Shown here: positions 14,619 to 62,754 of the stretch, in pieces | How the letters are laid out: every line of letters begins with the position of its first letter | Position numbering within the stretch: the stretch's first letter is position 1 | Assembly: GCA_021731815.1 (NCBI GenBank) | Contig: JAKFWO010000028.1 | Location: 1-64,000, forward strand | Source of the DNA: Hyphomonadaceae bacterium | GTDB taxonomy: Bacteria > Pseudomonadota > Alphaproteobacteria > Caulobacterales > Aquidulcibacteraceae | Reading direction: 5' to 3' | DNA: 64,000 nt | The notes under the pieces: model-generated | Database searches by the model: none | What the model was told of the DNA's origin: nothing | What the model saw: only the letters and a program-made list of their open reading frames with translations | Made by a program: the position numbers and the translations under genes

Positions 14619-16004
14619 TTATTCGCCTTCGGCACCTGCTGGCTCAACCCCCAGCGATTTCAGCTTGCGGTGCAGTGCCGAGCGCTCCATGCCGATAAAT
14701 TGCGCGGTACGCGAGATATTTCCGCCGAATCGGGTGATCTGGACGGCGAGATAATGCCGCTCGAAGCGTTCGCGCGCATCGCGCAGCGGCATTGCCACCA
14801 CTTCATGGGCCGCGCCAAATCCCGGCGCGACGAGATTTGATCCCACATCCTGGGGCAGTTCCTCCGGGCGAATTTCCTGGCCCGGATCGCCGCCGCACAG
14901 AATGAGGATCCGCTCCACCAGATTGCGCAATTGCCGCACATTGCCGGGCCATTCCGCCGCCTGCAACACGGCCATCGCCTCCGCAGACAATTTCCGCGGC
15001 GCGAGGCCCGTGGCTTCGGCAAGGCGCCGGACGAAATATTCCACGAGGGGAGGCACATCCTCGCGCCGCTCGGCGAGTGAGGGAATCCGCAGGGGCACGA
15101 CATTGAGCCGGTGGTAGAGATCCTCGCGGAAGCGTTCGACCGCAATGTCCTGGGTGAGGTCGCGGCTCGAGGAAGACAGCACCCGGACGCTGACCTGCAC
15201 ATCGGTCTCGCCGCCGAGTCGCCGGAAGCGCTGTTCGAGTAGCACGCGCAGGATCTTTGATTGGCTGGCCTTCGGCATTTCGCCGATCTCGTCAAAAAAC
15301 AGCGTGCCGCCATGGGCTTGCTCGAGCAGGCCGACCTTTTTCACGCGTCCGTCCGGGCTTTCTTCGCCGAATAATTCGCTTTCGAGCCGATCGGCCTCGA
15401 TCGCGGCGGCATTGACGGCGACGAAGGGGCCATCGCGGCGGGGCGAGCGTTCATGGATGAGGCGTGCCGCCAATTCCTTGCCCGAACCCGAAGGTCCGTG
15501 GATCATGATCCGGCTATTGGCGGCGGCCACGCGATCGATGGTCGCGCGCAATTGCGCCACTGCCGCCGAGCTGCCGATCAGTTCGGTGGTCAGGATCGAA
15601 TGGGCGCGCAGGGAATCATTGTCGCGTTTTAACCGGGCCTGTTCCAGCGCACGGGCCACAACCAGCAGCAGCCGGTCGGCCGTGAAGGGCTTTTCGATGA
15701 AATCATAGGCACCCTTGCGGATGGCCGCGACAGCAGTTTCGATCGAGGCGTGGCCGCTGATCACGACGACCGGCAGATCGCAATCCATTCCCTTGACCAC
15801 GGCAAGCAATTCGAGCCCGTCCATGCGGCTGTCCTGCAGCCAGATATCAAGGACCACCAGATTGGGCTTGCGCATCCTGAGCGCGGCCAGCGCCGAATCG
15901 GCATTGGCGGCGCTGCGTACCGAATAGCCTTCATCGGCCAATAATCCGCCAGCCAGTTCGCAGATATCGGCTTCGTCATCGACGATCAGAATGTCTGCGG
16001 TCAT
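14619..16004 (-). CDS. ntrX: nitrogen-assimilation response regulator NtrX
   Basis: A 461-residue response regulator paired with the membrane kinase NtrY. The receiver domain (1-120) has DDE at 10-11 and the phospho-acceptor Asp53. The AAA+ domain has Walker A GPSGSGKE (170-177) and an intact Walker B FFDE (236-239). A Fis-type helix-turn-helix lies at the end (NISRTAQFIGMERSALHRKLKSLG). The loop that carries GAFTGA in sigma-54 activators reads EESPDGRVKKVG, so NtrX probably does not act through sigma-54, as is usual for this family. The ATG at 16004 has GGAG 8 bases ahead. It is 40 bases downstream of ntrY. Confidence 0.95.
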   Translation of the reverse strand: MTADILIVDDEADICELAGGLLADEGYSVRSAANADSALAALRMRKPNLVVLDIWLQDSRMDGLELLAVVKGMDCDLPVVVISGHASIETAVAAIRKGAYDFIEKPFTADRLLLVVARALEQARLKRDNDSLRAHSILTTELIGSSAAVAQLRATIDRVAAANSRIMIHGPSGSGKELAARLIHERSPRRDGPFVAVNAAAIEADRLESELFGEESPDGRVKKVGLLEQAHGGTLFFDEIGEMPKASQSKILRVLLEQRFRRLGGETDVQVSVRVLSSSSRDLTQDIAVERFREDLYHRLNVVPLRIPSLAERREDVPPLVEYFVRRLAEATGLAPRKLSAEAMAVLQAAEWPGNVRQLRNLVERILILCGGDPGQEIRPEELPQDVGSNLVAPGFGAAHEVVAMPLRDARERFERHYLAVQITRFGGNISRTAQFIGMERSALHRKLKSLGVEPAGAEGE

Positions 16005-16044
16005 CAGAGGGACTCCTTGAAGGGTGAATTCCCGGCAGCCTGAA

Positions 16045-18393
16045 TCATTGGGCGGCAATATCCATTGGTACGGATTCGGGCAGGTTCCGGGATTGGCGCA
16101 GTGGTAGTGTCACGCGGACCCTCGCCCCTGCGGGGCCGTTTCGGGTTTCGGTCGCCGGGGGCGAAAGGGCGGTCGCCTCGATATGTGATTCCGGGGGCGC
16201 GTCCTCGAGCTGGATCCGCCCTCCATGGTCCTCGATCGCCCTTTTGACGATGGCGAGGCCGAGCCCGGAGCCGCGCGCGCGCGTGCTGACATAGGGCTCG
16301 AACAGCCGGCGCCGGTCCTGGACCGGAAAGCCCGGGCCGTTGTCGGTAATGATGACGCAGACTTCGCCGCGCGCGATCATTTCCTCGGCAACCACGTCGA
16401 CCCGCCCCTGGCGCGGCGCGGCAGAATTATTCATTTGTTCAATGGCCTCCGCCGAGTTCTTGATCAGGTTCGCAAATGCCTGACCGAGGATACGCGCATC
16501 GCATTCGGCGCGAATGGGAGTTTCGGGAAAATGAAGCCCGATCGTGATATCCGGAAATGCCAGCCTTTGGGCAAAGACGGCTTCTCGCAGGATCTCGTGG
16601 ATGCTGGCGGCAGCGAAATCGGGAGCCGGCATACGGGCAAAGGCCGAGAACTCATCCACCATGCGGCGAATATCGCCCACCTGACGCAGTATGGTCTGGG
16701 TGCAGCGGTCAAAGGTGTCGCGGTCGCTCTCGATGGACGGCCCATAGCGCCGGCTGAGCCGTTCGGCCGCCAGCTGAATGGGGGTGAGCGGATTCTTGAT
16801 TTCGTGGGCGATCCGGCGGGCGACATCCTTCCACGCTGCATGGCGCTGGGCGGAGACCAGCCGTGTCATGTCGTCGATGGTCACAATGAATCCGGCACCG
16901 CTTTGTCCGGCGGTGATTCGGACATTCAGATAGAGAACATCGTTGGCCTTTTCGATCTCGATCTGCTCGCCCATGGGGTGTTGGGGATTGCGCGGGACCC
17001 GATCGATCAGTTCGCCGAGAGCCGGGAGAAGGGCCACAAGGGGAATTCCCGTCAATTCTTCGGCATTGCGCTCCAGAAGATCACAGGCCGCGCGATTGGC
17101 GAGTGTAATCCGGCCGTCATTGTCCAGCCCAAGCACTCCTGACGAGACCCCCGACAACACCGTTTCAATGAAATGCGAGCGGTCTTCGGCTTCCGATCGG
17201 GCGCGGATGAGGTCCCCGTGCTGGGTCTCGAGCCGGGATGTCATCCCGTTAAAGGCCCGCGACAGGGCTTCAACTTCATCCCCGCCCGGCCGGGCTGGCA
17301 CCCTCGCCGAAAGATCGCCCGTGCGCACGCGCCGCGCCGCCACCACCAGCCGGCTGATCGGGCCAACGATCGAATTGGCGGCGGAAAGCCCGATCCAGGT
17401 TGCCGCGAAGAAGATCAGCAGCGCCGTCTGCAAATAAGCGAGCGAGAGTATGAGTTGCAGCCGGCCCTGACGGGCCTCGGCGGCGCGATATTCCCGCACC
17501 CGGTCCTGCGCCACGCGCAATTGTCGCCAGATCGATCCATCCACATAACGAATGGCGTAGAGATAGATCTCAGGCTCGCCCTGCAAGCGGTACAGAGCAC
17601 GGATCACATTGGTGTCTTCTTCCGGCCGTGCTGCCACGCCGCCGCTGCGGGCATTGGCGAAGGTCTGGGCATTCGGGGCCGCAAATTGCGGCGCGCCATC
17701 CGATTCGGCGCGCACCAATGGCCTGCCCCCGGCATCCACCAAATAGGCCGCCGAAAAGCTGCGATAAATGGCCTGCGTGCGCAGATAGGTGGCGAGTTCA
17801 GTGGCGCTGGCCGCATTGGCACGCGCATTATCGACATCTTCGGCCATCGCGAGCACTTCGCCGCGCAAATTCTCGACCGTCTCGCGCACATAGGCCTGGG
17901 CGGCCTCGACCGATTTGTCAACGATGGTGGAAATGCGGGTGTCGAACCAGGCTTCCACGGAACGAAACAGGGTAAGGCTGAGAAACGCCGCGACGATCGC
18001 CGCCGGTGCAACGGCTGCAAAGCCGAACAAAGCCGCGAAACGCAATTTGAGCCGCGCCCCGGATTCAGGCCGATTCAGCCCGCGTCCGATCCGCCACAAT
18101 TGCCGGATGAGTACGGCAGCAATCGCCAGGATCAGCGCGAAATTCAGCGCCAGCAGCCAGATCATCCAGGGGCTGGCAGGCGGGATGGGCCCGGCCCCTG
18201 AAATCGAGAGAAATGTGATTGCTGCCGCGATCAGCCCCGCTACAGCAAAGACATAGGGCATTGCGGAAATGCCGAGGCGCTGTGCATCCAGCGTGCCCCG
18301 CCCGATGCGCGCCCCTTCGGCCTCTATCTGTGCGGGATCGGATTCAGCTGGCACGCGGGTTCCTGATGATAATTCGTTGGCCCGGGGACCCAT
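16045..18393 (-). CDS. ntrY: nitrogen/redox sensor histidine kinase NtrY
   Basis: A membrane histidine kinase of about 782 residues. The order is N-terminal membrane helices, a large periplasmic sensor region, a further helix (LAYLQTALLIFFAATWIGL), HAMP (SIVGPISRLVVAARRVRTGDLSARV), a PAS domain, the H-box RRIAHEIKNPLTP with phospho-His, and the ATPase boxes NLIKNSAEA, DNGPGFP and GSGLGLAIVKR. The start at 18393 has GGAG close by; a GTG at 18447 in the same frame is the alternative. It lies downstream of ntrC and pairs with ntrX. An NtrZ-like candidate regulator is encoded at 50442. Confidence 0.95.
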   Translation of the reverse strand: MGPRANELSSGTRVPAESDPAQIEAEGARIGRGTLDAQRLGISAMPYVFAVAGLIAAAITFLSISGAGPIPPASPWMIWLLALNFALILAIAAVLIRQLWRIGRGLNRPESGARLKLRFAALFGFAAVAPAAIVAAFLSLTLFRSVEAWFDTRISTIVDKSVEAAQAYVRETVENLRGEVLAMAEDVDNARANAASATELATYLRTQAIYRSFSAAYLVDAGGRPLVRAESDGAPQFAAPNAQTFANARSGGVAARPEEDTNVIRALYRLQGEPEIYLYAIRYVDGSIWRQLRVAQDRVREYRAAEARQGRLQLILSLAYLQTALLIFFAATWIGLSAANSIVGPISRLVVAARRVRTGDLSARVPARPGGDEVEALSRAFNGMTSRLETQHGDLIRARSEAEDRSHFIETVLSGVSSGVLGLDNDGRITLANRAACDLLERNAEELTGIPLVALLPALGELIDRVPRNPQHPMGEQIEIEKANDVLYLNVRITAGQSGAGFIVTIDDMTRLVSAQRHAAWKDVARRIAHEIKNPLTPIQLAAERLSRRYGPSIESDRDTFDRCTQTILRQVGDIRRMVDEFSAFARMPAPDFAAASIHEILREAVFAQRLAFPDITIGLHFPETPIRAECDARILGQAFANLIKNSAEAIEQMNNSAAPRQGRVDVVAEEMIARGEVCVIITDNGPGFPVQDRRRLFEPYVSTRARGSGLGLAIVKRAIEDHGGRIQLEDAPPESHIEATALSPPATETRNGPAGARVRVTLPLRQSRNLPESVPMDIAAQ

Positions 18394-18471
18394 GCTCTCC
18401 GGATGTCGAATGGCGATCGGCTCCCAGCCCCATGACCAAATTGCCACGACCTGTGTGGCAATTGCAACACG

Positions 18472-19971
18472 CTAATCATTATCCGGGGAACCCTCAAGCC
18501 CCAGTGCCACAATGCGCGCCCGCAGCGTATTGCGGTTGAGCCCGAGAATTTCGGCGGCGCGCAATTTGTTTCCGCGCGTTCGCCCAAGCACCAGCCGTAA
18601 CAAAGGCCGCTCGAGCGCTGCGAAAACCGCGTCATGCAGCCCAGTCTTATGACCGGACCCGCGGGTACCGGCCTGCTGAACAGCCAGAAGGCCGGGCAAT
18701 ATATCGGCGACAATCGCCGCGAAACGGGTTTCGAGGTCCTCTTCATTTTCCGCAGCAGCTTGACGGAGATGGAGCGATTCGGCCGTATTCAGGGCTGAAA
18801 TCCGTTGGCCGGGATTGAGCGCGGCCAGCCGGCGCACCAGATTTTCCAGTTCGCGCACATTGCCGGGCCAGGAATGGCGCTTGAGAAGTTCGAGCGCTTC
18901 CGGCTCGAAGCTTTTTTTGACGAGAACGCTGCCAGCCGGCTCGTGACGGGCGAGAAACGCACGCGCAAGGTCGGAGGCATCATTGTCCCGTTCCCGCAAG
19001 GGGGGAAGCCTGAGCGACACGACATTCAGTCGCCAATAGAGTTCACTGCGAAACCGGCCATCGGCAACGGCTTCCGCCAGATCCTGGTCCGCGTCAACGA
19101 TCAGGCGCGGCGCGCAAAAGGTTCCCGGATGGCTGGCAAGCATTCTTTCTCGTTCAGCGAGCCAGGCCGACAACCGGGTCTGGACGCCCGGACCGAGTGC
19201 GTCCACCGATTGCAGGTACAGGGTGCCCGAATGGGTCTCGGCAAGCTGGCCATGCTTTGGGTCGCCGTCGACGCCAAACAGGGTGCGTTCCACGGCATTG
19301 CCCGATATGGCGGCGAGGTTGATGGTTGAAAAAGGCAGGCCCCGACGGCGTGAGAGATCGTGGATGAGCCGCGCGGTCAACGCCTTTCCGGTTCCCGGCT
19401 CCCCGGTCAGCAAGACGGTGAGGTCGGTGTTCATCACCCGGGCGATGATGCGATAGACCTCCTGCATGGCCGGTGAGCGCCCGATCATCGGCAAGGGGTC
19501 CGTGACCGGTTCATCCTGCCCCCCGCCATCGCGTCCGCCCGCCCGCGAATTGGCCTTCGCGGTGGATTTGGTTGCCGCCCGGTTGGCAGTCAGCAATAAT
19601 TGGTCAAGATCAAAGGGCTTCGGCAGATAATCAAAGGCACCATGTTCGATTGCGGCAGCGGCGGTCAGGACATTGTTCTGCGCCGACACCACGATCACCG
19701 GCAGATCGGGCCGCGCGGCGCGGATGCGGGGCAGCAGGTCGAAGATGCTTTCGTCTTCCATATAGACATCGGTGATGACGAGATCGCCTTCCCCCTCCGA
19801 CACCCAGCGCCACAGGGCCCCGGGCGCGGACGTTGCGCGAACGCGAAACCCTTCCCGCGTCAGTGCCTGGCTCAGGACTGTGCGGATCGAACTGTCATCA
19901 TCGGCCAGCAGGACGGTCCGGCCGGTCGAAGGGGTGGCAGATCGTTCCGTTAATTCGCGGGGGAGGGTCAT
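18472..19971 (-). CDS. ntrC: NtrC response regulator with a degenerate AAA+ core
   Basis: A 499-residue NtrC, the output regulator of nitrogen limitation paired with NtrB. The receiver (1-120) keeps the acidic pocket and Asp68. Walker A is GEPGTGKA (190-197). The Walker B segment GTLYLQSVD (249-257) has Gln254 and Ser255 where active AAA+ activators have Asp-Glu. The loop after LFG (VDGDPKHGQLAE) lacks GAFTGA. The Fis-type helix-turn-helix at the C-terminus is normal (KLRAAEILGLNRNTLRARI). ATP hydrolysis and sigma-54 contact are therefore probably lost while phosphorylation and DNA binding stay. The start overlaps the ntrB stop (ATGA). It could act at sigma-70 promoters, as reported for Rhodobacter capsulatus NtrC. 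Confidence 0.93.
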   Translation of the reverse strand: MTLPRELTERSATPSTGRTVLLADDDSSIRTVLSQALTREGFRVRATSAPGALWRWVSEGEGDLVITDVYMEDESIFDLLPRIRAARPDLPVIVVSAQNNVLTAAAAIEHGAFDYLPKPFDLDQLLLTANRAATKSTAKANSRAGGRDGGGQDEPVTDPLPMIGRSPAMQEVYRIIARVMNTDLTVLLTGEPGTGKALTARLIHDLSRRRGLPFSTINLAAISGNAVERTLFGVDGDPKHGQLAETHSGTLYLQSVDALGPGVQTRLSAWLAERERMLASHPGTFCAPRLIVDADQDLAEAVADGRFRSELYWRLNVVSLRLPPLRERDNDASDLARAFLARHEPAGSVLVKKSFEPEALELLKRHSWPGNVRELENLVRRLAALNPGQRISALNTAESLHLRQAAAENEEDLETRFAAIVADILPGLLAVQQAGTRGSGHKTGLHDAVFAALERPLLRLVLGRTRGNKLRAAEILGLNRNTLRARIVALGLEGSPDND

Positions 19972-21152
19972 GACGGGATAATCTCCGTTCCCGCCGACAA
20001 TTCCGGCGCATTGAAGGGCAGAACGAGGCGGAATTTGGTGAGGCCTGGCCGGCTCTCACATTCGACAAGGCCGCCATGGGCGGCGGCGGCTTCGGCGACC
20101 ACCGATAATCCGAGCCCCGTTCCGCGCGGCTTGGTCGTGACAAAGGGCAGAAACAGGGATGGTCGAATGTCGTCCGGGATTCCGGTCCCGCGATCGGTGA
20201 TGCAGATTTCCACCCCGCCCCGTCCGGCCCTGGCGGCCCCGGTGAATGTGACACCGGATCGGGCTTTGGTCTGGATGGATAATGCCGGAGGCCCCGCGCC
20301 ATCCCCCGCAGATGACAGCGGCGGAACAGCCGGCGCGTTCGCCATCGCCTCGGCCCCGTTGCGCAACAGATTGAGCACGGCCTGCACCAGCAAATCCTCA
20401 TGGCCGGGTATGTCCGGCAAAGACGGGTCATAATCCTCCGCAATCCCGAGACCCGAAGCGAAACCTGCCAGCGCCATTTCACGGGCCCGTCGCAACACGG
20501 CATGGATATTCAGCAATTTCTTCGCGCCGGAATCCATGGGGCTGACATTGTCCAGCCGGTCGATCAGGCGGGCGATCCGGTCGCTTTCAGCGACGATGAT
20601 TTCCAGCAGATCACGATGGTCACCAGATGCTTCACGCAGCAGGAATTGCGCGGCCCCCTTGAGGCCTGCCAGCGGGTTGCGCACTTCATGGGCGATGAGT
20701 GCCGCGAGTCCCGATGGGCGCTGCGCCCCGGTTCCCGGCCGGTAGAGCTTGCGTGTGGGATCGGTTCGGATGAGCAGCACGAGATTATCGCAATCCGGGG
20801 CAGGCATGCCGGCCCTGGTGGAATTCGGAACCAGACGCGCCGCCGAGATGGTGGCGACGAGCGACGATCCGATTCCGCGTCCCGGCTTCAGGCTCATTTC
20901 GCCGATCGCAGCACCGGTGGCGCGCGCGCTGGCGAGCAAAGCCGCAAGATCCGGGCTAAGGCTCAATGCTTCAGACAAAGGCGCGCCCGCCAGAATGGTG
21001 CGGCTGCGGCCGAGCAACGTTTCGGCCGCGGCGTTCATTGCGCTGATCCGGTCGCCTGCATCAATCGCTACGACAGCAGCGGGCAAGGCATCGAGCAGGG
21101 CTTCGGCCCCCGGTGGATGAATATCGGAGCGTGGCGAACCGGCCGGACTCAC
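19968..21152 (-). CDS. ntrB: nitrogen regulation histidine kinase NtrB
   Basis: A 394-residue soluble kinase/phosphatase that phosphorylates NtrC under PII control. An N-terminal PAS domain begins LLDALPAAVVAIDAGDRI. The H-box is LIAHEVRNPLAGLKGAAQFL. The ATPase boxes are LLRNGAEAM, DRGTGIP and GTGLGLSVVAEAAAAHGG. The long frame extends into dusB, but the GTG at 21152 overlaps the dusB stop as GTGA, and the family alignment starts soon after, so I use it. It is coupled to dusB upstream and ntrC downstream by 4-base overlaps. Confidence 0.95.
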   Translation of the reverse strand: MSPAGSPRSDIHPPGAEALLDALPAAVVAIDAGDRISAMNAAAETLLGRSRTILAGAPLSEALSLSPDLAALLASARATGAAIGEMSLKPGRGIGSSLVATISAARLVPNSTRAGMPAPDCDNLVLLIRTDPTRKLYRPGTGAQRPSGLAALIAHEVRNPLAGLKGAAQFLLREASGDHRDLLEIIVAESDRIARLIDRLDNVSPMDSGAKKLLNIHAVLRRAREMALAGFASGLGIAEDYDPSLPDIPGHEDLLVQAVLNLLRNGAEAMANAPAVPPLSSAGDGAGPPALSIQTKARSGVTFTGAARAGRGGVEICITDRGTGIPDDIRPSLFLPFVTTKPRGTGLGLSVVAEAAAAHGGLVECESRPGLTKFRLVLPFNAPELSAGTEIIPS

Positions 21153-22297
21153 GCCGGGTCCTCTTCGAAGTGGAGCGCGGGTGCTGGCTCGTCCCCGGGG
21201 GACGCACCGAGCAAAGCCTGCGCGCGCGCGCAATCGCCCTCGATAAACCACGCCTCGACCCCCCGGGCGACGCGCGCGGGGTCGGTTTCAGTGCACAGGG
21301 CCCGGCGAAATTCCAGGGTGCCGGGCAGGGAATGCGGATCGGGATTGGCGTCGACCCACGCCGCCAGATGTTTGCGGGCCACCTTGGTGCCGAGTGCGGT
21401 GCCATAAAGCCGCAGGCTTTCCTCATGGAGTCGCAGCAAGGACAGGCCAAGCGCCGGGCGGTCGGGTCGCTGATAGTCCCGGCCCGCCAGTCCGGCGGCG
21501 ATTTCCCCGATGAGCCAGGGCCGCCCCATCGCCGCGCGCCCCACCATCACCCCATCCGCCCCCGAAGCGCACAAGGCGGCGCGGGCCGAAGCCAGATCTT
21601 CGATATCTCCATTGACGATCAGCGGAATGGCGATCGCGCGGCGAACCGCCGCCACCGCCGTCCAATCGGCACGACCCTTGTAGAACTGACAGCGCGTGCG
21701 ACCATGGACGATGATCGCCGCCACGCCAAGCCGATCGGCGAGTGCCGCAAGCGCGGGTGCCTGATGCGTCATGGCATCCCAGCCAAGCCGCATCTTGACC
21801 GTCACGGGCAGCCCGGCCGCGCCTTCGAGCACGGCTTCGATCAATCGCGCACACAGATCCGGGTCGCGCATGAGTGCTGCACCGGCCGCAGCGCCGGTCA
21901 CCTGTTTGGCCGGGCAGCCCATATTGATGTCGATGATGTCGACCCCGTCCTCCCTGGCGCGGGCGGCACCGAGCTTCATCCATTTCGGCTCGCGGCCGGC
22001 CAATTGGCGAATGTCGGGGCTGCGCATTACATCGGGGGACCGGCTTTCTCCGTGCCGGGTCAGCGGTGCGGCACGGCGGGTCATGTCCGCGCGGTTGGCG
22101 AGCAATGCTTCGCAGGCGACCATTTCCGAGACCGCAGCCGGCGCGCCCATGGCCAGCGCCTCGGCGCGGAAGGGTGCGTCGGTTACACCCGCCATCGGCG
22201 CAAGCAGTGCCCTGCCCGACAGCGTGAAGCCGCCGAATTTCAGTTCGGCGAATTCCGGCAGGTCGATTTCGGATGCAAATGAAATGGTTTCGCTCAT
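21149..22297 (-). CDS. dusB: tRNA-dihydrouridine synthase DusB (NifR3)
   Basis: A 382-residue FMN enzyme that reduces uridines in the tRNA D-loop. The fold shows APMAGVTDAPFR (FMN site), INMGCPAKQV with catalytic Cys128, VKMRLGWD, IVHGRTRCQFYKGRADW, and the VNGDIED and GVMVGRAAMGRPW phosphate-binding motifs. It heads the nifR3-ntrBC operon, an arrangement known in Rhodobacter, Azospirillum and rhizobia. The ntrB start overlaps its stop. Confidence 0.95.
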   Translation of the reverse strand: MSETISFASEIDLPEFAELKFGGFTLSGRALLAPMAGVTDAPFRAEALAMGAPAAVSEMVACEALLANRADMTRRAAPLTRHGESRSPDVMRSPDIRQLAGREPKWMKLGAARAREDGVDIIDINMGCPAKQVTGAAAGAALMRDPDLCARLIEAVLEGAAGLPVTVKMRLGWDAMTHQAPALAALADRLGVAAIIVHGRTRCQFYKGRADWTAVAAVRRAIAIPLIVNGDIEDLASARAALCASGADGVMVGRAAMGRPWLIGEIAAGLAGRDYQRPDRPALGLSLLRLHEESLRLYGTALGTKVARKHLAAWVDANPDPHSLPGTLEFRRALCTETDPARVARGVEAWFIEGDCARAQALLGASPGDEPAPALHFEEDPA

Positions 22298-27571: not shown

Positions 27572-27757
27572 ATGCGTTTTCCACGTTCCTCCTTTCGGCG
27601 TTCGGGCCGGGCGCCGCGTCTGCCGCTCGTCCCCACAATGCTGGTGATCGCGCTGGTATTGGCCGGCGGATTCTTCTTTCTGCTGGGAAAGGCGGATCGG
27701 CAAAAGCCGGTTCCCAAGGAGAAAGTCATTGAGCTTACGGATGAGTTTCCGCGCTAG
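27572..27757 (+). CDS. small single-pass membrane protein
   Basis: A 61-residue protein with a basic N-terminus rich in Arg, a single hydrophobic helix at about residues 19-39 (LVPTMLVIALVLAGGFFFLLG), and a charged C-terminal tail of 20 residues. The Arg-rich start predicts an N-in, C-out topology. It overlaps the start region of the next gene by 29 bases and so is likely part of one transcript with it. No ribosome site lies at normal distance from the ATG. I do not recognise a family, but the composition and overlap argue that it is real. Confidence 0.6.
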   Translation: MRFPRSSFRRSGRAPRLPLVPTMLVIALVLAGGFFFLLGKADRQKPVPKEKVIELTDEFPR

Positions 27758-29420
27758 CCTGCTGGCTGCAGGTGCGTGCAGTCTGGTCATTCTGACAGCC
27801 ACCGGAGCTTTCGCACAATCACTCGATGTGCGGCCCGTCAGTGGAGCGAGCTCCTTTGGCTTTGCGGTGGAAGAAATGCTGGCGCGACCTTTTCCCGCCG
27901 ATTCCTGGCGCGGCTCGGCGTTTCGCGATGCCGAGAATATTCTGGCGGATTTCGGAATCCCCGGAAGCAGCCGGGTCGGGTTCGACCTGCTGGCGCGCGC
28001 GATTGCAAGTCCGGGTGCAGAACCCGACAATGCGGGCCCGGCGACGGGCGCGGCGCGCCTGGCGGCGATCTATGCGCTTGGCCGGACCGGTGATGTCGCC
28101 AGGGGTCTCGGCCGCATCCGTTCAGTCGCGGAAACGCCGCTGGGGCGACGGCTGGGAGCCGAACTGAAATTGCTGGCCGGCAATGATGCGGGGGCCTGTG
28201 GCGCTCCGGGATTCGATCCCGGCACCGCAGAGCCTGCCACCTTGTCCCCGGAGGAAATGCGCGAGGCCCGCTTTGCTGCCCGGCTTCGGCTGTTTTGCGC
28301 GGCCGTCTCCGGAGACGGAGCAAATGCCAACGCAGCGATCGCACGGCTGAAAGTGCTCGGTGCCGCCGGTGACTGGGCCGAAGCCGCCGCCAATCGTCTG
28401 CTCAAGCGCGCACCGGCCAGGGCCAGCCTGACCCCGCGCTTTGAAGATGCGATCGATTATCGGTTGGTTGAAGCGCTGGGTCTGGCCCGGACGGTCACGA
28501 TGATCAATCGCGCACCTCTGCCTCTGCTGCGCGCCATGCTTGACGATCCGCAAACGCCGGATGTCGTGCGCGCCGCCGCGATCGAACGCGCGTTGCGCCA
28601 GGGCTTTCTTTCGGGCGAAAATGCCCGCAAGCAGGCGTTGGCCATGGCGGGCTTTGCCCCCAATGCCGGGTTTCTGCGCAACCGGACATTGTTGCTCGAT
28701 CTCGCCGCCATCACCAGTCTTGCCCCCGCCGCGCGGGGCGAAGCTCTGGCCGCTGCCTTGATCAAGCCGCGACCCTTTGCGGAATTCGCCGCACTGAGCG
28801 CCTTATTGGCACCCGAGATTGCCGCAATGCGGATCGATACCGGCAATGCTGCGCTGGGCGCGCCGCTGGCCCGGGCGGCGTTGTCGGTCGGGGATCTTTC
28901 TGCTGCGCAAGGCTTTTTTCGGTTGGCCACCGGTGCGGGCGGTGTGGCAAAGGATGATCCCAATATCCAGCGTCTGTCGCTCGCCTTGGCGCTTGCGGCC
29001 ACCGAATCAGCAGACAGTCCGGCGCAGGCGCGCCAGAAGCTGATTTCCGCCGCGCAGGCACGCTTTGACAGCGCGGCCGCAATCGGACCGGCGCAAATGG
29101 CCGAGGCCGTGCGCGATTGCCTGATCGCGGCGGGTGCGGGCAATCTTGGCCTCGCCGAGCTTGACCTGCCGGCCGAGGCCATCAATGCGTCATCCGGCAC
29201 CGGGGGGCTCGGCGTGTTCCAGCGCATCCGGTTCAGTGATTCCCTGCGGCGCGGGGCGCGGGCCGAGGCCGCGATCCTCGCCGCCGGGTTTTCCGACGGG
29301 GGCGCTGAACTCGCATCGGCGGATGCATGGCTGGCGCTGAGCGGGCTCAACCAGGTCGGGCTTGCCGGAGATGCGCGGGCACTGGGTGTGGAATGGCTGT
29401 TGTCCGGTGTGAAGCTGTAA
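27729..29420 (+). CDS. secreted helical protein of unknown function
   Basis: A 563-residue protein with a signal peptide (hydrophobic about 11-24, cleavage after GAFA near 29). An Ala/Leu-rich helical body follows with alternating short helices like a TPR- or HEAT-type solenoid. No catalytic motif is visible. The TTG at 27729 has AAGGAG 6 bases ahead and is my chosen start; the ATG at 27741 is the alternative. It overlaps the small membrane protein gene upstream and lies 124 bases ahead of xerD. I do not know its function. Confidence 0.75.
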   Translation: MSLRMSFRASLLAAGACSLVILTATGAFAQSLDVRPVSGASSFGFAVEEMLARPFPADSWRGSAFRDAENILADFGIPGSSRVGFDLLARAIASPGAEPDNAGPATGAARLAAIYALGRTGDVARGLGRIRSVAETPLGRRLGAELKLLAGNDAGACGAPGFDPGTAEPATLSPEEMREARFAARLRLFCAAVSGDGANANAAIARLKVLGAAGDWAEAAANRLLKRAPARASLTPRFEDAIDYRLVEALGLARTVTMINRAPLPLLRAMLDDPQTPDVVRAAAIERALRQGFLSGENARKQALAMAGFAPNAGFLRNRTLLLDLAAITSLAPAARGEALAAALIKPRPFAEFAALSALLAPEIAAMRIDTGNAALGAPLARAALSVGDLSAAQGFFRLATGAGGVAKDDPNIQRLSLALALAATESADSPAQARQKLISAAQARFDSAAAIGPAQMAEAVRDCLIAAGAGNLGLAELDLPAEAINASSGTGGLGVFQRIRFSDSLRRGARAEAAILAAGFSDGGAELASADAWLALSGLNQVGLAGDARALGVEWLLSGVKL

Positions 29421-54785: not shown

Positions 54786-54965
54786 CCGATCGCCGGGACA
54801 CGCTTTCCATGTCTATCCCCAATTCCGGTGACGTGTCGATCCTTTGGCCCATTGCCGGGGGTAGCCGTGCCATTGCCCAAATGCCTTCGGTTGCAAACCG
54901 TGCGGGGCGCGCATAGGTTTTCCGCAGGCCGGTCGCGGGGATCGGCATGGCGAGGGGGCGGCACC

Positions 54966-56303
54966 TTGGCAGATTCTGACGCTCCCCGGGCCAATCCTTC
55001 AGGGGCCAATCCTGACGGGGCGGATTCCCCAAGGGCGATCGCGCGGCTGGCGGGCGAGGCGCGCCTTGCCGTCGAGCGGGCAGCGGGCGAAATCCGCCAG
55101 GCGACGCCGCAGTCCCTGTCCAGTGCCCAGATGGCCGCCGAAGCCCAGGGCGAATTGTTCCGCCTTGCCCAGCGTTTTCGCGACCAGATCGTGGTCACAG
55201 CGCTCGCCGAACAGCGTGCCGAGCATGAATTGCGTCGCTTTCGGGCCGATAATGGCCTGACGCGCGAAGCCCGCTACCGCGAATCGGGCCTGCTGCAAAT
55301 GGGGCTCATTGCGATGGCTGTGTTGTTCGAGGCCGGCCTCAACGGCGTTCTGTTCCAGAAGGCCAATGACCTTGGTCTGGCGGGCGGCGCCGCCCAGGCG
55401 CTGATCCTTGCTTTGGTCAATGTCTCGGCCGGGCTGATGCTCGGCGCGATCGGCTGGCGGCTGGCCGGTCACCGGCGCATCGGCCCGCGTCTGCTGGGCT
55501 GGGTGGTGACGCTGGCGCTGTCGGCTTTCGGTCTGTTCTGGAATCTCTATGTCGCGCATTTTCGGACCGCACTCGAAGCGCGGCTCGCCGTGCCGAAGAA
55601 AGCATCGGCCCTGCAGGCCGCACCGCTCGATGCGCTCGACCGCATGGGGGCGGGGCTGTTCAATCTCGGCGGGGATGATTCGCTGGCCTTGCTGGCGATT
55701 GGCGGGCTGATTTTCATTTTCGCCACGCTTGAGGGGCGATCAGGCCTCGCCGATCCCTATTGGGGCTATAAGGCGCGCGACCAGGCACTGGCCGACGGAC
55801 GCGCCGCCCATGCCGCGATGAAAGACCGCTATCGCCGGGCGCTGGGGCGGGCCATCGCGGCGCGCGAGGCCCGGATCGATACGGCCCTGCGAGCAGATCT
55901 CAGGCGCCTTGCCGAAATGAAATCCACCGAACATGCGGCGAGCCTTACCCTCCACCGTTTGAGCGAAAAGGCGCGCGCAGTGTCTCGGGAAAGCCGGGAT
56001 CCGGGGATTGTCGGCTTCCCGACCCTCGACGCTGCAATTGCAGCCCTTGCTGCGGCGGAAAATGTCATGCTCGCCAATCGCGCAGCCGCGACCGAGGCCA
56101 AGGCCGCGGGCGCGGAATTGCTGCGCGCCGCCGAAAACGGGCTCGAACCCCTGATCGCTGCGGCGGAAGCCGAAGCCCGGCGCAAATTGCGCGCCGAATG
56201 GCAGGGCACCGCGGCGCCGAAAAATGATTCCCCCGATGCCGCGGACATGACCGAATCCCGGCTCTCATCCACCAATCCGGACAAGGAATGGGGCGATGCG
56301 TAA
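54966..56303 (+). CDS. coiled-coil multi-pass membrane protein of unknown function
   Basis: A 445-residue protein. Residues about 15-105 are charged and helical (Ala/Arg/Glu), a likely coiled coil. Three membrane helices lie at about 120-140, 150-175 and 180-205, then one at about 245-262. A second long Ala/Arg/Glu coiled coil follows at about 280-420. The TTG at 54966 has GAGGGGG 7 bases ahead; the earlier ATG frame runs through unlike sequence. Its last 8 bases overlap the start of the VWA-like gene, so the two products are made together. I do not recognise a named family; the helical-arm plus membrane-core plan suggests a scaffold or sensor. Confidence 0.75.
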   Translation: MADSDAPRANPSGANPDGADSPRAIARLAGEARLAVERAAGEIRQATPQSLSSAQMAAEAQGELFRLAQRFRDQIVVTALAEQRAEHELRRFRADNGLTREARYRESGLLQMGLIAMAVLFEAGLNGVLFQKANDLGLAGGAAQALILALVNVSAGLMLGAIGWRLAGHRRIGPRLLGWVVTLALSAFGLFWNLYVAHFRTALEARLAVPKKASALQAAPLDALDRMGAGLFNLGGDDSLALLAIGGLIFIFATLEGRSGLADPYWGYKARDQALADGRAAHAAMKDRYRRALGRAIAAREARIDTALRADLRRLAEMKSTEHAASLTLHRLSEKARAVSRESRDPGIVGFPTLDAAIAALAAAENVMLANRAAATEAKAAGAELLRAAENGLEPLIAAAEAEARRKLRAEWQGTAAPKNDSPDAADMTESRLSSTNPDKEWGDA

Positions 56304-57179: not shown

Positions 57180-60100
57180 TCAGGCCTGGGGCGGCACGAA
57201 TTTCCGGCGCAAGGCGGCAAGGAAGCCGTCAAAGGCGGCGGTATCGGCGATGCGGCGCGCGGCCTCGCGCAGGGATTCCCCGCTGCGTTCGGGCTCGCGG
57301 GTCAATACGGCGAAGGCTTCGGCATAGGGCCCGGTACCGAGCGCAAGGCCATGGTCGCGCGCGAGTTTGGCAATGGCGGCCTTGTCTTCGGCGAGGCTCG
57401 CGGCAACTGTGGCCCGCAAGGCCAGCGCCTGCCCCTCGCGATCCAGCGGGGAATTGGCGGCAGGCAGCAATTTCTGGAGTGCGGTGCTGGCCACGCCCCA
57501 TTCCTGTTGCCGCCAGGCGACATCGGCGCGTAACCGCGCGGCTTCGTCCCCTTCCACACCCTCCAGCAATTCCATGGCGTGGTCATAGCGCTTGAGCCCG
57601 GCCAAAGCGGCTGATTCCAGCACCCGACGCTCGCGGCGCAAAGGCTCGGGCAGCCGCGGCTGGCGGGTTTCGCGCAAGGCCCGCAGTGCCTTTTCCGGCT
57701 CGCGCGCGATGAGATAAATCCCCGCGAGATCGGCAGCGACCCGGGCTTCGTCTTCGCCGCGCAGACGGCGATCGACCTGGTGCTGGAGCAATTCCGCCGC
57801 CTGGGGCAGGAGATCGAAACTGACGAGACGCCTCGCCAGTTTGCGCACGCCCTCGTCCCCTTCCGGGCCCTGGGGGGCGAGTTCCCGGAACTGGTAGAAC
57901 AGCCCAAGCGCCTCGATCGGTTCGAGCTGATCGGCCGCACCCTCGATGAACAAAGCCCGGAAGCCGTCGGCGAGCGCCGCGCGCAGGCGCCGCGCACCGG
58001 GCAGATCGCCGCCACGCGCGGCAGCGCCCTGCATGACGTTGAATGCCTCGCGCCAGCGATTGTCCTGAATATAGGATGTGCCGAGATATTCGATCGCCGC
58101 GAGCTCAATGGCATCGCCACGCCAGCGATAACGCAGGGCCTCCATCCGGTCCACGGCTTCTTCGGGCTTGATCCGGCCGGCCTTCAGCCCCAGATCGACC
58201 CGTGACAATTCGGCAAGAACCGCGATGCGCTCGTCCGGATCGCCTGCCAGTGCATCGAGTGCCTTGAGGCCCGCATCGAGCGCGCCGGTCTCGGCATCGG
58301 CCCGCGCCTTGACAATCAAAGCGGGCCGAATGCGCGGATCCTTTTGCCCGATGGTTCCGGCGTCCTGCAGGGCCGCGAGCGCCAATGTGCGGGCATTTTG
58401 CGGATCCCCGGCCTCAATCGCCGCCTGCGCAGCAACCGTGCGGAAAATCGCCCGCCACAAGGGCCCATAGGATTCGAATGCATCGCCCGCGATCTGGAGC
58501 TGGCGGCGGGCCTGGGGCCAGTCACCCTCGTCGGCCGAAGCGAGCGCCCGCCACAAAGCGGCATTCGGGTCATCGGCCAGCGGACCCGCCCCCAGATCGC
58601 GGCGCGCCGGCTTAAGGCGCCCGGTCATGTAATTGGCGACCCCGCGCAGACCCAGAAAATGGCGGTCGCCAGCCAGATTGGGATCGGAGCTGCCCGCGAC
58701 ATTGAGGGCACCCAGCGCTTCCGGGCCCATCTCATGGGCGAGGTAAAAGCGGGCCATTGCCAGATGGGCATCGCGCGCCTGGGGTGTTCCCGGATCGGCG
58801 CGCGCCGCATCACGCCCCAGCCGGCGCAAGGTGTCAGTGAAATCCTTGCCGCCCTTCCAATTGTCGAAGTCGATAAAGGCGGGTGTGGCGGACTGGCCCG
58901 AAAATCCTGAGCCGCCGACAAAGGCCAGATCGCCCAAAGTGGTCGAGTCACCCGATGCGAGGACGAAGCCCGAGGGAGCCGCCTCGGCGATTACCCCCTG
59001 ACCCAGCACCTCGGCGGCGGCACCCTGGGCGGTCGGCAGGAGCCGGGCTTCGAGGATCGACCGCTGGGCCAGCACGCCACGCTCGGGCCCATGGGCCATG
59101 GCAACTGCAAGGCGATCGCCCACAAAGGGATCATTGATCCAGCCAACCCGCTCGATTCCGGGCAACAGGACCCGCAGCCTCGCGCGACCGTCAGGACCCG
59201 GTTCGCGCCGGGCAAGTGCGGGCTGGGGCGGCGCAATATTCCGGTCGGACAGCGAAAAGCGCCATTTTGCCCCTTCCGCTTTTGCCGAGAGATATTGGTC
59301 GGGCCGCGCCTTGAGCGCAAAGCCGACAAGCCCCGCGCCCCTGATTTCGGTGAAGCCTGAATCCGGGCGCCGCAAAAGGGATGCTGCGGAAAAATCGAGC
59401 CTGGCCTCCGCCCCGAACAGGATGAACACCGAATCACCCCGCCGGAAGGCAGCGGCCGGGGCAGGCGCTGCCCATTCGGTGTCGATCGTGATTCCGCCGG
59501 GTGCGGGACTCGCGCGCACACGCACGACGCCGCTTTTGGGCACCGGATCGGGACGGGGTGGAGCAGCCACCCCGGGATCGTCTCCATTATCCGTGGCGAA
59601 GGGGTCTGCCGCCGGTTTGACGGGGGCATCTGCCGCCGGCACGGCCAGTGCCACCGGCCCCGGCGGCAGGATGCCCTTTGGCGGTCCGGCTTTGGCTTCA
59701 GCGGGTGTGACCGTCGGCGGCGGCGCGTCGCGCAGATCGATCACCACCTGTTTGGCGTCCCGAAACACCTTGATGGTGACATCCGGGGCGGTCTCGACCA
59801 CCAGAGTGAAGCGGTCATCGTCATTGGCACCCGAGATGCGGGCCAGGCGCTTCGGAGGATCGATGCGGATCGGCGCGAGATCGGCGAGTGCGGGGCGCGC
59901 AAAGCGCAGGGTCAGGCGTGCCCCGTCGCGGCTTTCGGTGAAATTCACCACCGAAGGCCAGTCCAGCGTGATGCGGGTCAGGCCCTCGATTTCCCCGGCT
60001 GTGACCTCGATCCCCACCGGCTTCGGCCGCGCGGCTTCCCGCTGGGCGGCTTTGGCACCCGCGGCTTCCGCGGCCTTTTTGTCCTCGATATCCGCCTGGG

Positions 60101-60506
60101 TCGAGCGAATGGGATCGGGGGGCGGCGCACCATCGGCGACCAGATCGAGGGCCGATAATTCATAGGACCGCGAGCTTTTGATCGTCACCGGCCGGGTCAA
60201 TGCGAGGGTCAGCGAGCGCCCGTCACTGCCCAGCCTTGCGCTGGACACGAAGGCCGGCAACCCCTGGACAATGGCCTCGACATTAATTTCCACCTGGTCG
60301 GCAAAACGGATGGTCAGGACACCATCCGCCAATACCGGCGCGATTTCGGGGGCCGCCGTGCGGGCTTGTTCCCATTGGAACACGATGCGGGCGCGGTCCG
60401 TGCCCTCGGCTGCCTGAATGCGCACCGGCGCAGCCTCTGCCGCGCTCGCCAGCAGAAGCGCCGCGAGGACAATGGCAGAAGCGTGGTGGGTCAGGCGGCG
60501 GCGCAT
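57180..60506 (-). CDS. large exported TPR protein of the flagellar locus
   Basis: A 1108-residue protein with a signal peptide (cleavage after AAEA near 25). The N-terminal 250 residues are beta-rich repeats of an AMIN-like plan (RIVFQWEQ, RITLDWPSVVNF, VIDLRDAP). A Pro-rich linker lies at about 265-330. From about 560 a long TPR-type helical solenoid follows. It is the last gene of the fliL-fliM run, 17 bases from the motE-like gene, so it probably serves the flagellum or motor in the periplasm. A similar large TPR gene is common at this place in alphaproteobacteria; its precise job is unknown to me. Confidence 0.8.
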   Translation of the reverse strand: MRRRLTHHASAIVLAALLLASAAEAAPVRIQAAEGTDRARIVFQWEQARTAAPEIAPVLADGVLTIRFADQVEINVEAIVQGLPAFVSSARLGSDGRSLTLALTRPVTIKSSRSYELSALDLVADGAPPPDPIRSTQADIEDKKAAEAAGAKAAQREAARPKPVGIEVTAGEIEGLTRITLDWPSVVNFTESRDGARLTLRFARPALADLAPIRIDPPKRLARISGANDDDRFTLVVETAPDVTIKVFRDAKQVVIDLRDAPPPTVTPAEAKAGPPKGILPPGPVALAVPAADAPVKPAADPFATDNGDDPGVAAPPRPDPVPKSGVVRVRASPAPGGITIDTEWAAPAPAAAFRRGDSVFILFGAEARLDFSAASLLRRPDSGFTEIRGAGLVGFALKARPDQYLSAKAEGAKWRFSLSDRNIAPPQPALARREPGPDGRARLRVLLPGIERVGWINDPFVGDRLAVAMAHGPERGVLAQRSILEARLLPTAQGAAAEVLGQGVIAEAAPSGFVLASGDSTTLGDLAFVGGSGFSGQSATPAFIDFDNWKGGKDFTDTLRRLGRDAARADPGTPQARDAHLAMARFYLAHEMGPEALGALNVAGSSDPNLAGDRHFLGLRGVANYMTGRLKPARRDLGAGPLADDPNAALWRALASADEGDWPQARRQLQIAGDAFESYGPLWRAIFRTVAAQAAIEAGDPQNARTLALAALQDAGTIGQKDPRIRPALIVKARADAETGALDAGLKALDALAGDPDERIAVLAELSRVDLGLKAGRIKPEEAVDRMEALRYRWRGDAIELAAIEYLGTSYIQDNRWREAFNVMQGAAARGGDLPGARRLRAALADGFRALFIEGAADQLEPIEALGLFYQFRELAPQGPEGDEGVRKLARRLVSFDLLPQAAELLQHQVDRRLRGEDEARVAADLAGIYLIAREPEKALRALRETRQPRLPEPLRRERRVLESAALAGLKRYDHAMELLEGVEGDEAARLRADVAWRQQEWGVASTALQKLLPAANSPLDREGQALALRATVAASLAEDKAAIAKLARDHGLALGTGPYAEAFAVLTREPERSGESLREAARRIADTAAFDGFLAALRRKFVPPQA

Positions 60507-61572: not shown

Positions 61573-62754
61573 TCAATTCCTCATCAGACTGCGCCGCGCG
61601 GTCGGCGTGATCGGGGCTTCGACCTGGAGCGCCACTTTGTGCCCGATCCGCCCGACCCGGCCGCGGGTCAGGGGCACTTCCTTGCATTTGAGCTGGACCG
61701 TCGCGTCCGGCGCGACATTGAGCATCAATGTGTCGCCGACTTTCAGCGACAGCATTTGTGACAAGGGCATCTGCATTTCATCGAGCACCGCCTGAACCGT
61801 CATATGAGTCGACCATAATTCGGTGGCGAGGTGGCCTTCCCAGATCTGGTCGCGGCCGAATTTCTCGCCCATGAATTGTTGCAGAAGCATTTTGCGAATG
61901 GGCTCGAGCGTCGCATAAGGCAGCAGCAATTCAGCGCGCCCGCCGCGATCTTCCATATCAACGCGCAATTTGACCAGGATGGCCGCGTTGGCGGTGCGGG
62001 CGATGGCCGCAAAACGGGGATTGACCTCGATCCGTTCGAGTTTGAAATCGACTTCGGTCAACGGCGCGAAAGCGTGTTTGGCGTCGCTCAGAATCACCTC
62101 GACAAGGCGGGTGACCAGCATGCGCTCGATCGTGGTATAGGGTCGTCCCTCGATCCGCATGGCGACCGTGCCGCGACGCCCGCCCAGCAGCACATCGACG
62201 ATGGAATAAATCAGGTTGGAATCGACGGTCACGAGGCCGTAATTGTCCAATTGCTCGGCCCGGAAGACGGCGAGAATGGCCGGCAGCGGGATCGAATGCA
62301 GATAATCGCCGAAGCGGATGGAGGAGATGGAATCGAGGCTGACCTCGACATTGTCCGATGTGAAATTGCGCAGCGAAGTGGTCATCAGCCGCACGAGGCG
62401 GTCGAATACCACTTCGAGCATCGGCAGACGCTCATAGGAAACGAGCGCCGAATTGATGATGGCGCGAACGCCGGAGCCATCGGCCTCTTCTTCCGAACCG
62501 AGGCTGAAGCCCAGCAGGCTGTCGATCTCGTCCTGGTTGAGGATGCGCTCGGCACCCACCGAATGCCCGGCGATTGACAGGCTGGGACCGCCGCCGGATG
62601 GCTGGTCGACCATGGCCGCCCATTCGGCCGCGAGGTCGTCGCCCGAATCTCCGCTCGAGGCCATGTCGAAGGGATCCGGCGCGGGATCACCCGAGCCCAG
62701 CAATTCCGCTTCCCAGGCGGCCGCCATATCGTCCTGATTGTCCGGCGCAGCCAT
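61573..62754 (-). CDS. fliM: flagellar motor switch protein FliM
   Basis: A 393-residue C-ring protein that binds CheY-P and sets rotation direction. The CheY-binding motif LNQDEIDSLLGF lies at 72-83, far from the start, because a 70-residue extension precedes it. In that extension DDMAAAWEAEL and DDLAAEWAAMV form a duplicated segment. The middle domain has LNQDEIDSLL-following SYERLPMLEVVFDRLVRLM and RNFTSDNVEV. The C-terminal SpoA domain has LKVGDTLMLNVAPDATVQLKC. FliL is 7 bases upstream. Confidence 0.96.
   Translation of the reverse strand: MAAPDNQDDMAAAWEAELLGSGDPAPDPFDMASSGDSGDDLAAEWAAMVDQPSGGGPSLSIAGHSVGAERILNQDEIDSLLGFSLGSEEEADGSGVRAIINSALVSYERLPMLEVVFDRLVRLMTTSLRNFTSDNVEVSLDSISSIRFGDYLHSIPLPAILAVFRAEQLDNYGLVTVDSNLIYSIVDVLLGGRRGTVAMRIEGRPYTTIERMLVTRLVEVILSDAKHAFAPLTEVDFKLERIEVNPRFAAIARTANAAILVKLRVDMEDRGGRAELLLPYATLEPIRKMLLQQFMGEKFGRDQIWEGHLATELWSTHMTVQAVLDEMQMPLSQMLSLKVGDTLMLNVAPDATVQLKCKEVPLTRGRVGRIGHKVALQVEAPITPTARRSLMRN

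Follow-up and report, generated by a model that had tools for sequence, protein, structure and literature searches.

A family-wide loss of the Walker B glutamate in NtrC points to a nitrogen regulator that binds ATP with little or no hydrolysis

bEBPs are the textbook ATP-driven activators. The ntrC gene at positions 18472–19971 of the window (the whole stretch of 64,000 nucleotides analysed here) raises the question of what such a protein does once its motor is gone: of the motifs of a sigma-54 enhancer-binding activator, its product has Walker A and is missing both the GAFTGA loop and the Asp-Glu pair of Walker B, and yet its residues for ATP binding, the oligomer interface and phosphorylation are still under constraint. 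Here we show that a missing Walker B Glu sets apart the whole family to which the window belongs (f1). Judged from its sequence, the ORF likely encodes a functional, orthologous NtrC in which the ATP-hydrolysis half of the AAA+ engine has been lost.

The ntrC locus and sigma-54 in the genome

The gene lies on the minus strand, as do its neighbours and every residue placed below. It starts with ATG and encodes a 499-residue response regulator of the REC–degenerate AAA+–Fis HTH type, in which Pfam finds receiver, AAA+, lid and Fis HTH domains. Its place and strand agree with the first-pass annotation, and so do the alignment of Asp68 (19768..19770) with the receiver phospho-Asp, the Walker A motif GEPGTGK (residues 190–196, 19384..19404) and the Fis-type HTH (PF02954, residues 452–487, 18511..18618), whose recognition helix NRNTLR is intact. 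The best NCBIfam model is that for ntrC (TIGR01818), at 409 bits and under the curated cut-off of 558.6; the AAA+ model PF00158 scores 109.8 bits, versus 176 for the NtrX of the same window.

ntrB, the gene for the cognate sensor kinase (PAS-HisKA-HATPase, 19968..21251), overlaps ntrC by 4 bases, and 5' of it lies dus (21149..22297), a nifR3-type tRNA-dihydrouridine synthase gene assigned by sequence and position alone. On the other side are the sensor kinase gene ntrY (16045..18447) and ntrX (14619..16058), giving the order dus-ntrB-ntrC-ntrY-ntrX. Architecture, best family model and position beside ntrB and upstream of ntrYX are all those of an NtrC orthologue, and in many relatives an NtrX-level match likewise lies about 3.4–3.7 kb from ntrC on the same contig. 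NtrX serves as an internal control: it is without GAFTGA and yet has an intact Walker B (LFFDEIG), and the Walker B loss is therefore specific to NtrC. Elsewhere in the window, three large ORFs have no Pfam match at an E-value of 1e-5 (27729–29420, 563 aa; 54828–56303, 491 aa; 57180–60506, 1108 aa).

The genome assembly (2.53 Mb, 48 contigs, 99.8% complete) holds one intact copy of rpoN, which rules out loss of sigma-54 from the organism. It encodes five bEBP-type proteins, namely a FlbD type, a TacA type, a PspF next to pspA, NtrX and NtrC, of which the first three all carry GAFTGA and Asp-Glu. The first-pass annotation had proposed looking for rpoN and for a second intact NtrC; a search of the genome found the former and no second NtrC, the remaining activators being the FlbD-, TacA- and PspF-type proteins and NtrX. 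Its view of sigma-54 as probably still in use finds good support in the intact rpoN and the three GAFTGA-bearing activators. The sigma-54 flagellar promoter that it saw in the window did not hold up: with the consensus TGGCACG-N4-TTGCW and up to 2 mismatches, the window has 16 such sites versus 11.7 expected, which is indistinguishable from chance. A flagellar region at the window's end is supported by the switch gene fliM at 61573–62754.

What the AAA+ domain has lost and kept

In the NtrC of the window, the L1 region (residues 230–248, 19228..19284) is shortened, and the stretch from LFG to Walker B reads VDGDPKHGQLAETHS, without GAFTGA. Walker B itself is degenerate (GTLYLQSVDA, residues 249–258, 19198..19227), with Gln254 (19210–19212) and Ser255 (19207–19209) in place of Asp-Glu; both readings bear out the earlier description of an LYLQS sequence and of an LFG that no GAFTGA follows. 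Sensor I is likewise altered, reading PRLIVDADQDL (residues 288–298, 19078..19110), with VDADQDL where relatives have AATN or ASTR. Measured against the GAFTGA-less, sigma-70 type of NtrC, the protein shares the missing GAFTGA and the intact receiver and HTH, but not the Walker B retained in the Caulobacter type. In a 48-contig draft the Walker B codons could conceivably have been misread or misassembled, and a base-level error at about 19205–19225 had been named as a possible way out; we rule it out as extremely improbable, since the codons CAA TCG (19207–19212) stand at least four in-frame base changes away from any Asp-Glu pair and the Glu is also missing from all 55 family orthologues.

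Those orthologues come from a set of NtrC sequences extracted and aligned from 249 genomes of the order and 60 of family f1, in which they represent 11 genera other than the window's own (12 with it). GAFTGA is missing from every NtrC extracted from the order. The Walker B Glu is present in 0/55 f1 orthologues versus 56/56 sequences from the sister families f2 and f3 and named relatives, so that the alignment to alphaproteobacterial orthologues called for in the first-pass annotation shows a family character. The double loss which that annotation reported is real, but neither half is a one-off: the GAFTGA loss is order-wide and already published for Caulobacter, and the Walker B loss is family-wide. 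NtrC in f2 and f3 is without GAFTGA and has Asp-Glu; f2 is probably Hyphomonadaceae, as named Hyphomonas and Henriciella sequences group there in the tree, and f3 probably Caulobacteraceae, most of its sequences having the published D56-K178-D235 spacing.

The replacements in f1 are diverse. The Walker B pair is Glu-Asp in 28/55 and the Asp is kept in 19/55; other pairs include Asp-Gly, Asp-Asp, Asp-Cys, Glu-Ser, Ser-Gly, Lys-Gly, Lys-Asp, Arg-His, Gln-His and Arg-Gly. At sensor I, 54 of the 55 have another residue in place of the Thr (27 Ser, 26 Ala, 1 Phe). We compared f1 with 58 reference sequences (f2, f3 and named relatives). Of the AAA+ positions with at least 97% invariance there, Glu255 and Gly257, both in Walker B, are the only ones at 0% in f1; at position 257, where the sister families have Gly, an Asp is new in f1 and found in 39/55. 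By the same comparison the Walker A Lys (Lys196), Arg308, Arg326, Arg328 and Arg373 are still at 100%, and the Walker A Gly, Asp68 and NRNTLR are also kept in 55/55. Arg308 (19048..19050) belongs to the arginine-finger region GRFRSELYWRLN, and Arg373 (18853..18855) to sensor II (GNVRELEN). In the window's protein the receiver residues for phosphorylation are all there (D25, D26, D68, S96, K118), and an AlphaFold2 model (mean pLDDT 81.6) predicts an intact AAA+ fold with residues 250–254 as the Walker B strand; its top structural matches are Brucella NtrX and NtrC1.

Elsewhere in the class, Walker B Asp-Glu is kept in 127 of 129 sampled NtrC sequences. The two exceptions, L320 (G327) and L341 (G349), both from outside the order, read LPDV and INYI and are apparently independent losses within the Alphaproteobacteria; both are also without GAFTGA, and Walker B loss is thus seen only where GAFTGA is absent too. 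A different NtrC type in family f4 (L182–L192) has a still larger L1 deletion, with no LFG, keeps Asp-Glu, and has a recognition helix that starts with His instead of the Asn of NRNTLR.

Constraint, history and competing explanations

In close f1 pairs, all from genera other than the window's (whose protein is without a relative in its own genus), dN/dS over the AAA+ domain is 0.01–0.09, and the domain is therefore maintained rather than drifting freely. The ratio of AAA+ to receiver divergence is 0.64 where NtrC bears GAFTGA, 0.99–1.24 where GAFTGA is absent and Asp-Glu kept, and 1.71 in f1, a rise that fits a loss of motor function. In a tree built with the motif columns removed, the window's NtrC sits on a long branch (1.2 changes per site), and a single f1 clade is not rejected (p-AU 0.094, or 0.425 without that branch). 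A single ancestral loss of the Walker B Glu is therefore possible, as are several separate losses within f1. Probably GAFTGA went first, in the order's ancestor, and with it the need for a motor; the Walker B Glu would have followed at the root of f1 or close to it, and the pair would later have decayed further to Gln-Ser in the window's lineage.

Could the protein still hydrolyse ATP, by a displaced acid (Asp257, or the Glu-Asp swap of other genera) or at mixed-ring sites shared with NtrX? The new and common Asp at 257, the retention of both acids in swapped order in 28/55, an arginine finger that is invariant as expected of a partner acting in trans, and an NtrX with intact LFFDEIG in the same gene cluster all speak for this. 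We nevertheless consider it unlikely: a single change at either Walker B acid of PspF costs more than 99% of activity (D107A, E108A and E108Q retain about 0.6%, 0.4% and 0.2% of wild-type Vmax; PMC3419264), sensor I is altered as well, Asp257 is predicted beyond the end of the Walker B strand in the AlphaFold2 model, and no evidence was found for mixed NtrC–NtrX rings. Weak hydrolysis in other f1 members is possible, given the 28 with swapped Glu-Asp and the 19 with Asp.

That ntrC is simply undergoing decay, in an organism to which NtrC has ceased to matter, would agree with the long branch and with the lack of the gene in three f1 genomes and in many from the order's other families. It is an improbable account all the same, because the ORF is full-length with receiver, Walker A and HTH intact, ntrB is intact, the gene order is conserved, and relatives with the same loss have the low dN/dS given above. 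More improbable by far is that NtrC remains a sigma-54 activator that dispenses with GAFTGA or hydrolysis. Sigma-54 flagellar genes do go up in Caulobacter NtrC mutants that lack DNA binding, although this NtrC has no GAFTGA (PMC12421884), and PspF E108Q is active on pre-opened DNA (PMC4132715); but the Caulobacter effect is one of HTH mutants, E108Q activity still requires GAFTGA (PMC4132715), and glnB has no nearby sigma-54-like site.

As for the distribution of the gene, no ntrC-level match, only paralogue-level ones, was present in G028, G152 and G167 of f1 (each at least 92% complete), from which it follows that ntrC can be dispensable. Matches at that level are absent too from many near-complete genomes of f3/g15, f4 and f5, and ntrC appears to have been lost repeatedly within the order.

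A probable ATP-binding NtrC and its counterparts

The explanation that we prefer, and think likely, is that this NtrC would hold ATP, hydrolyse it barely if at all, and act at sigma-70-type promoters. Its ATP binding, oligomerisation and promoter class are what we infer from the sequence state, its conservation, the selection on it and the genome context. NtrB would phosphorylate Asp68 under nitrogen limitation; phosphorylated NtrC would bind ATP and oligomerise stably through the Walker A/arginine-finger interface, with no hydrolysis cycle, and would then bind near promoters such as that of glnBA, recruiting or blocking RNA polymerase of the sigma-70 type, as classical response regulators do. 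The first-pass annotation had proposed an ATPase-dead, classical phospho-dependent regulator. The GAFTGA loop and the hydrolysis residues are indeed gone, and sigma-54 is still in the genome, but the protein is better described as hydrolysis-dead and probably ATP-binding, because none of the 55 relatives has lost Walker A, the arginine finger or sensor II. In PspF, the E108Q change tightens ATP binding 30-fold and makes the protein hexameric without nucleotide (PMC4132715), and R. capsulatus NtrC reportedly needs ATP binding and not hydrolysis, by the account given in PMC10274813.

Upstream of glnB in the window genome, no sigma-54-like site occurs within 800 bases, a weak sign of sigma-70-type regulation. 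In genus g4 of the family (L213–L217, L220–L224), a conserved inverted repeat, TTGGGCGCCGGCGCC...GGGCGCC, about 100–130 bases upstream of glnBA is a candidate NtrC site by its sequence; genus g2 has TGCCTAGAGTCTAGGCA upstream of glnB in its place. Upstream regions of glnBA hold a conserved GGCGCC inverted repeat in one genus and a TGCCTAGA-type palindrome in another, and no NtrC motif common to the family was established from them, nor one common to the promoters of glnB, glnK and dus in the genome of the window.

More tentatively, the NtrC of the whole family may have ceased to be an ATP-driven motor and become a pseudo-ATPase. Bound ATP would then be a ligand with a structural or energy-sensing role, whereby nitrogen control would read cellular ATP by occupancy and without consumption, possibly in assemblies mixed with NtrX. 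A literature search, with subscription papers mostly outside its coverage, found no degenerate or pseudo-ATPase NtrC-family proteins. The family makes it testable what the AAA+ domain does in sigma-70-type NtrC, and whether ATP must be hydrolysed there or need only be bound.

Among known proteins, NtrX (Brucella 5m7n, and that of the window) has the same architecture, no GAFTGA and the best structural match, but keeps its Walker B acids (LYLDEV in the Brucella chain) and has a different partner kinase. VpsR of Vibrio cholerae, structurally similar in the structure search, is a sigma-70 bEBP without GAFTGA and is reportedly ATP-independent, as related in PMC10274813 and PMC3162934; unlike the window's protein it binds c-di-GMP and is not an NtrC orthologue. 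HupR, TyrR and DhaR are bEBP paralogues that have lost GAFTGA and work with sigma-70 (PMC3162934), yet they are other regulators, not NtrC orthologues. The NtrC of Rhodobacter capsulatus is GAFTGA-less and works with sigma-70 (Bowman and Kranz 1998, as reported in PMC10274813), but has a different, larger L1 deletion; two NtrC records labelled Rhodobacteraceae (L067, L078), neither of them R. capsulatus NtrC itself, keep Asp-Glu.

Closest is the sister-family orthologue of Caulobacter crescentus: it too is without GAFTGA, its phospho-Asp, Walker A and HTH are in place (PMC10274813, PMC12421884), and it is reported active at sigma-70 promoters (PMC10274813). Unlike the window's NtrC, it still has Asp-Glu in Walker B and its sensor I is intact, and its D235A allele supports no growth on ammonium (PMC10274813). 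Walker B loss is thus not neutral there, and f1 has escaped a constraint to which its sister family is still subject; either f1 has acquired compensating changes, or the D235A effect is one on ATP/Mg binding. NtrC in f1 goes one step beyond that of Caulobacter, where Walker B is still required, and the proteins form a stepwise series, largely in one order, from a full motor outside the order, through the GAFTGA-less Caulobacter protein that needs its Walker B, to forms without the catalytic Glu and, finally, to one with both acids gone.
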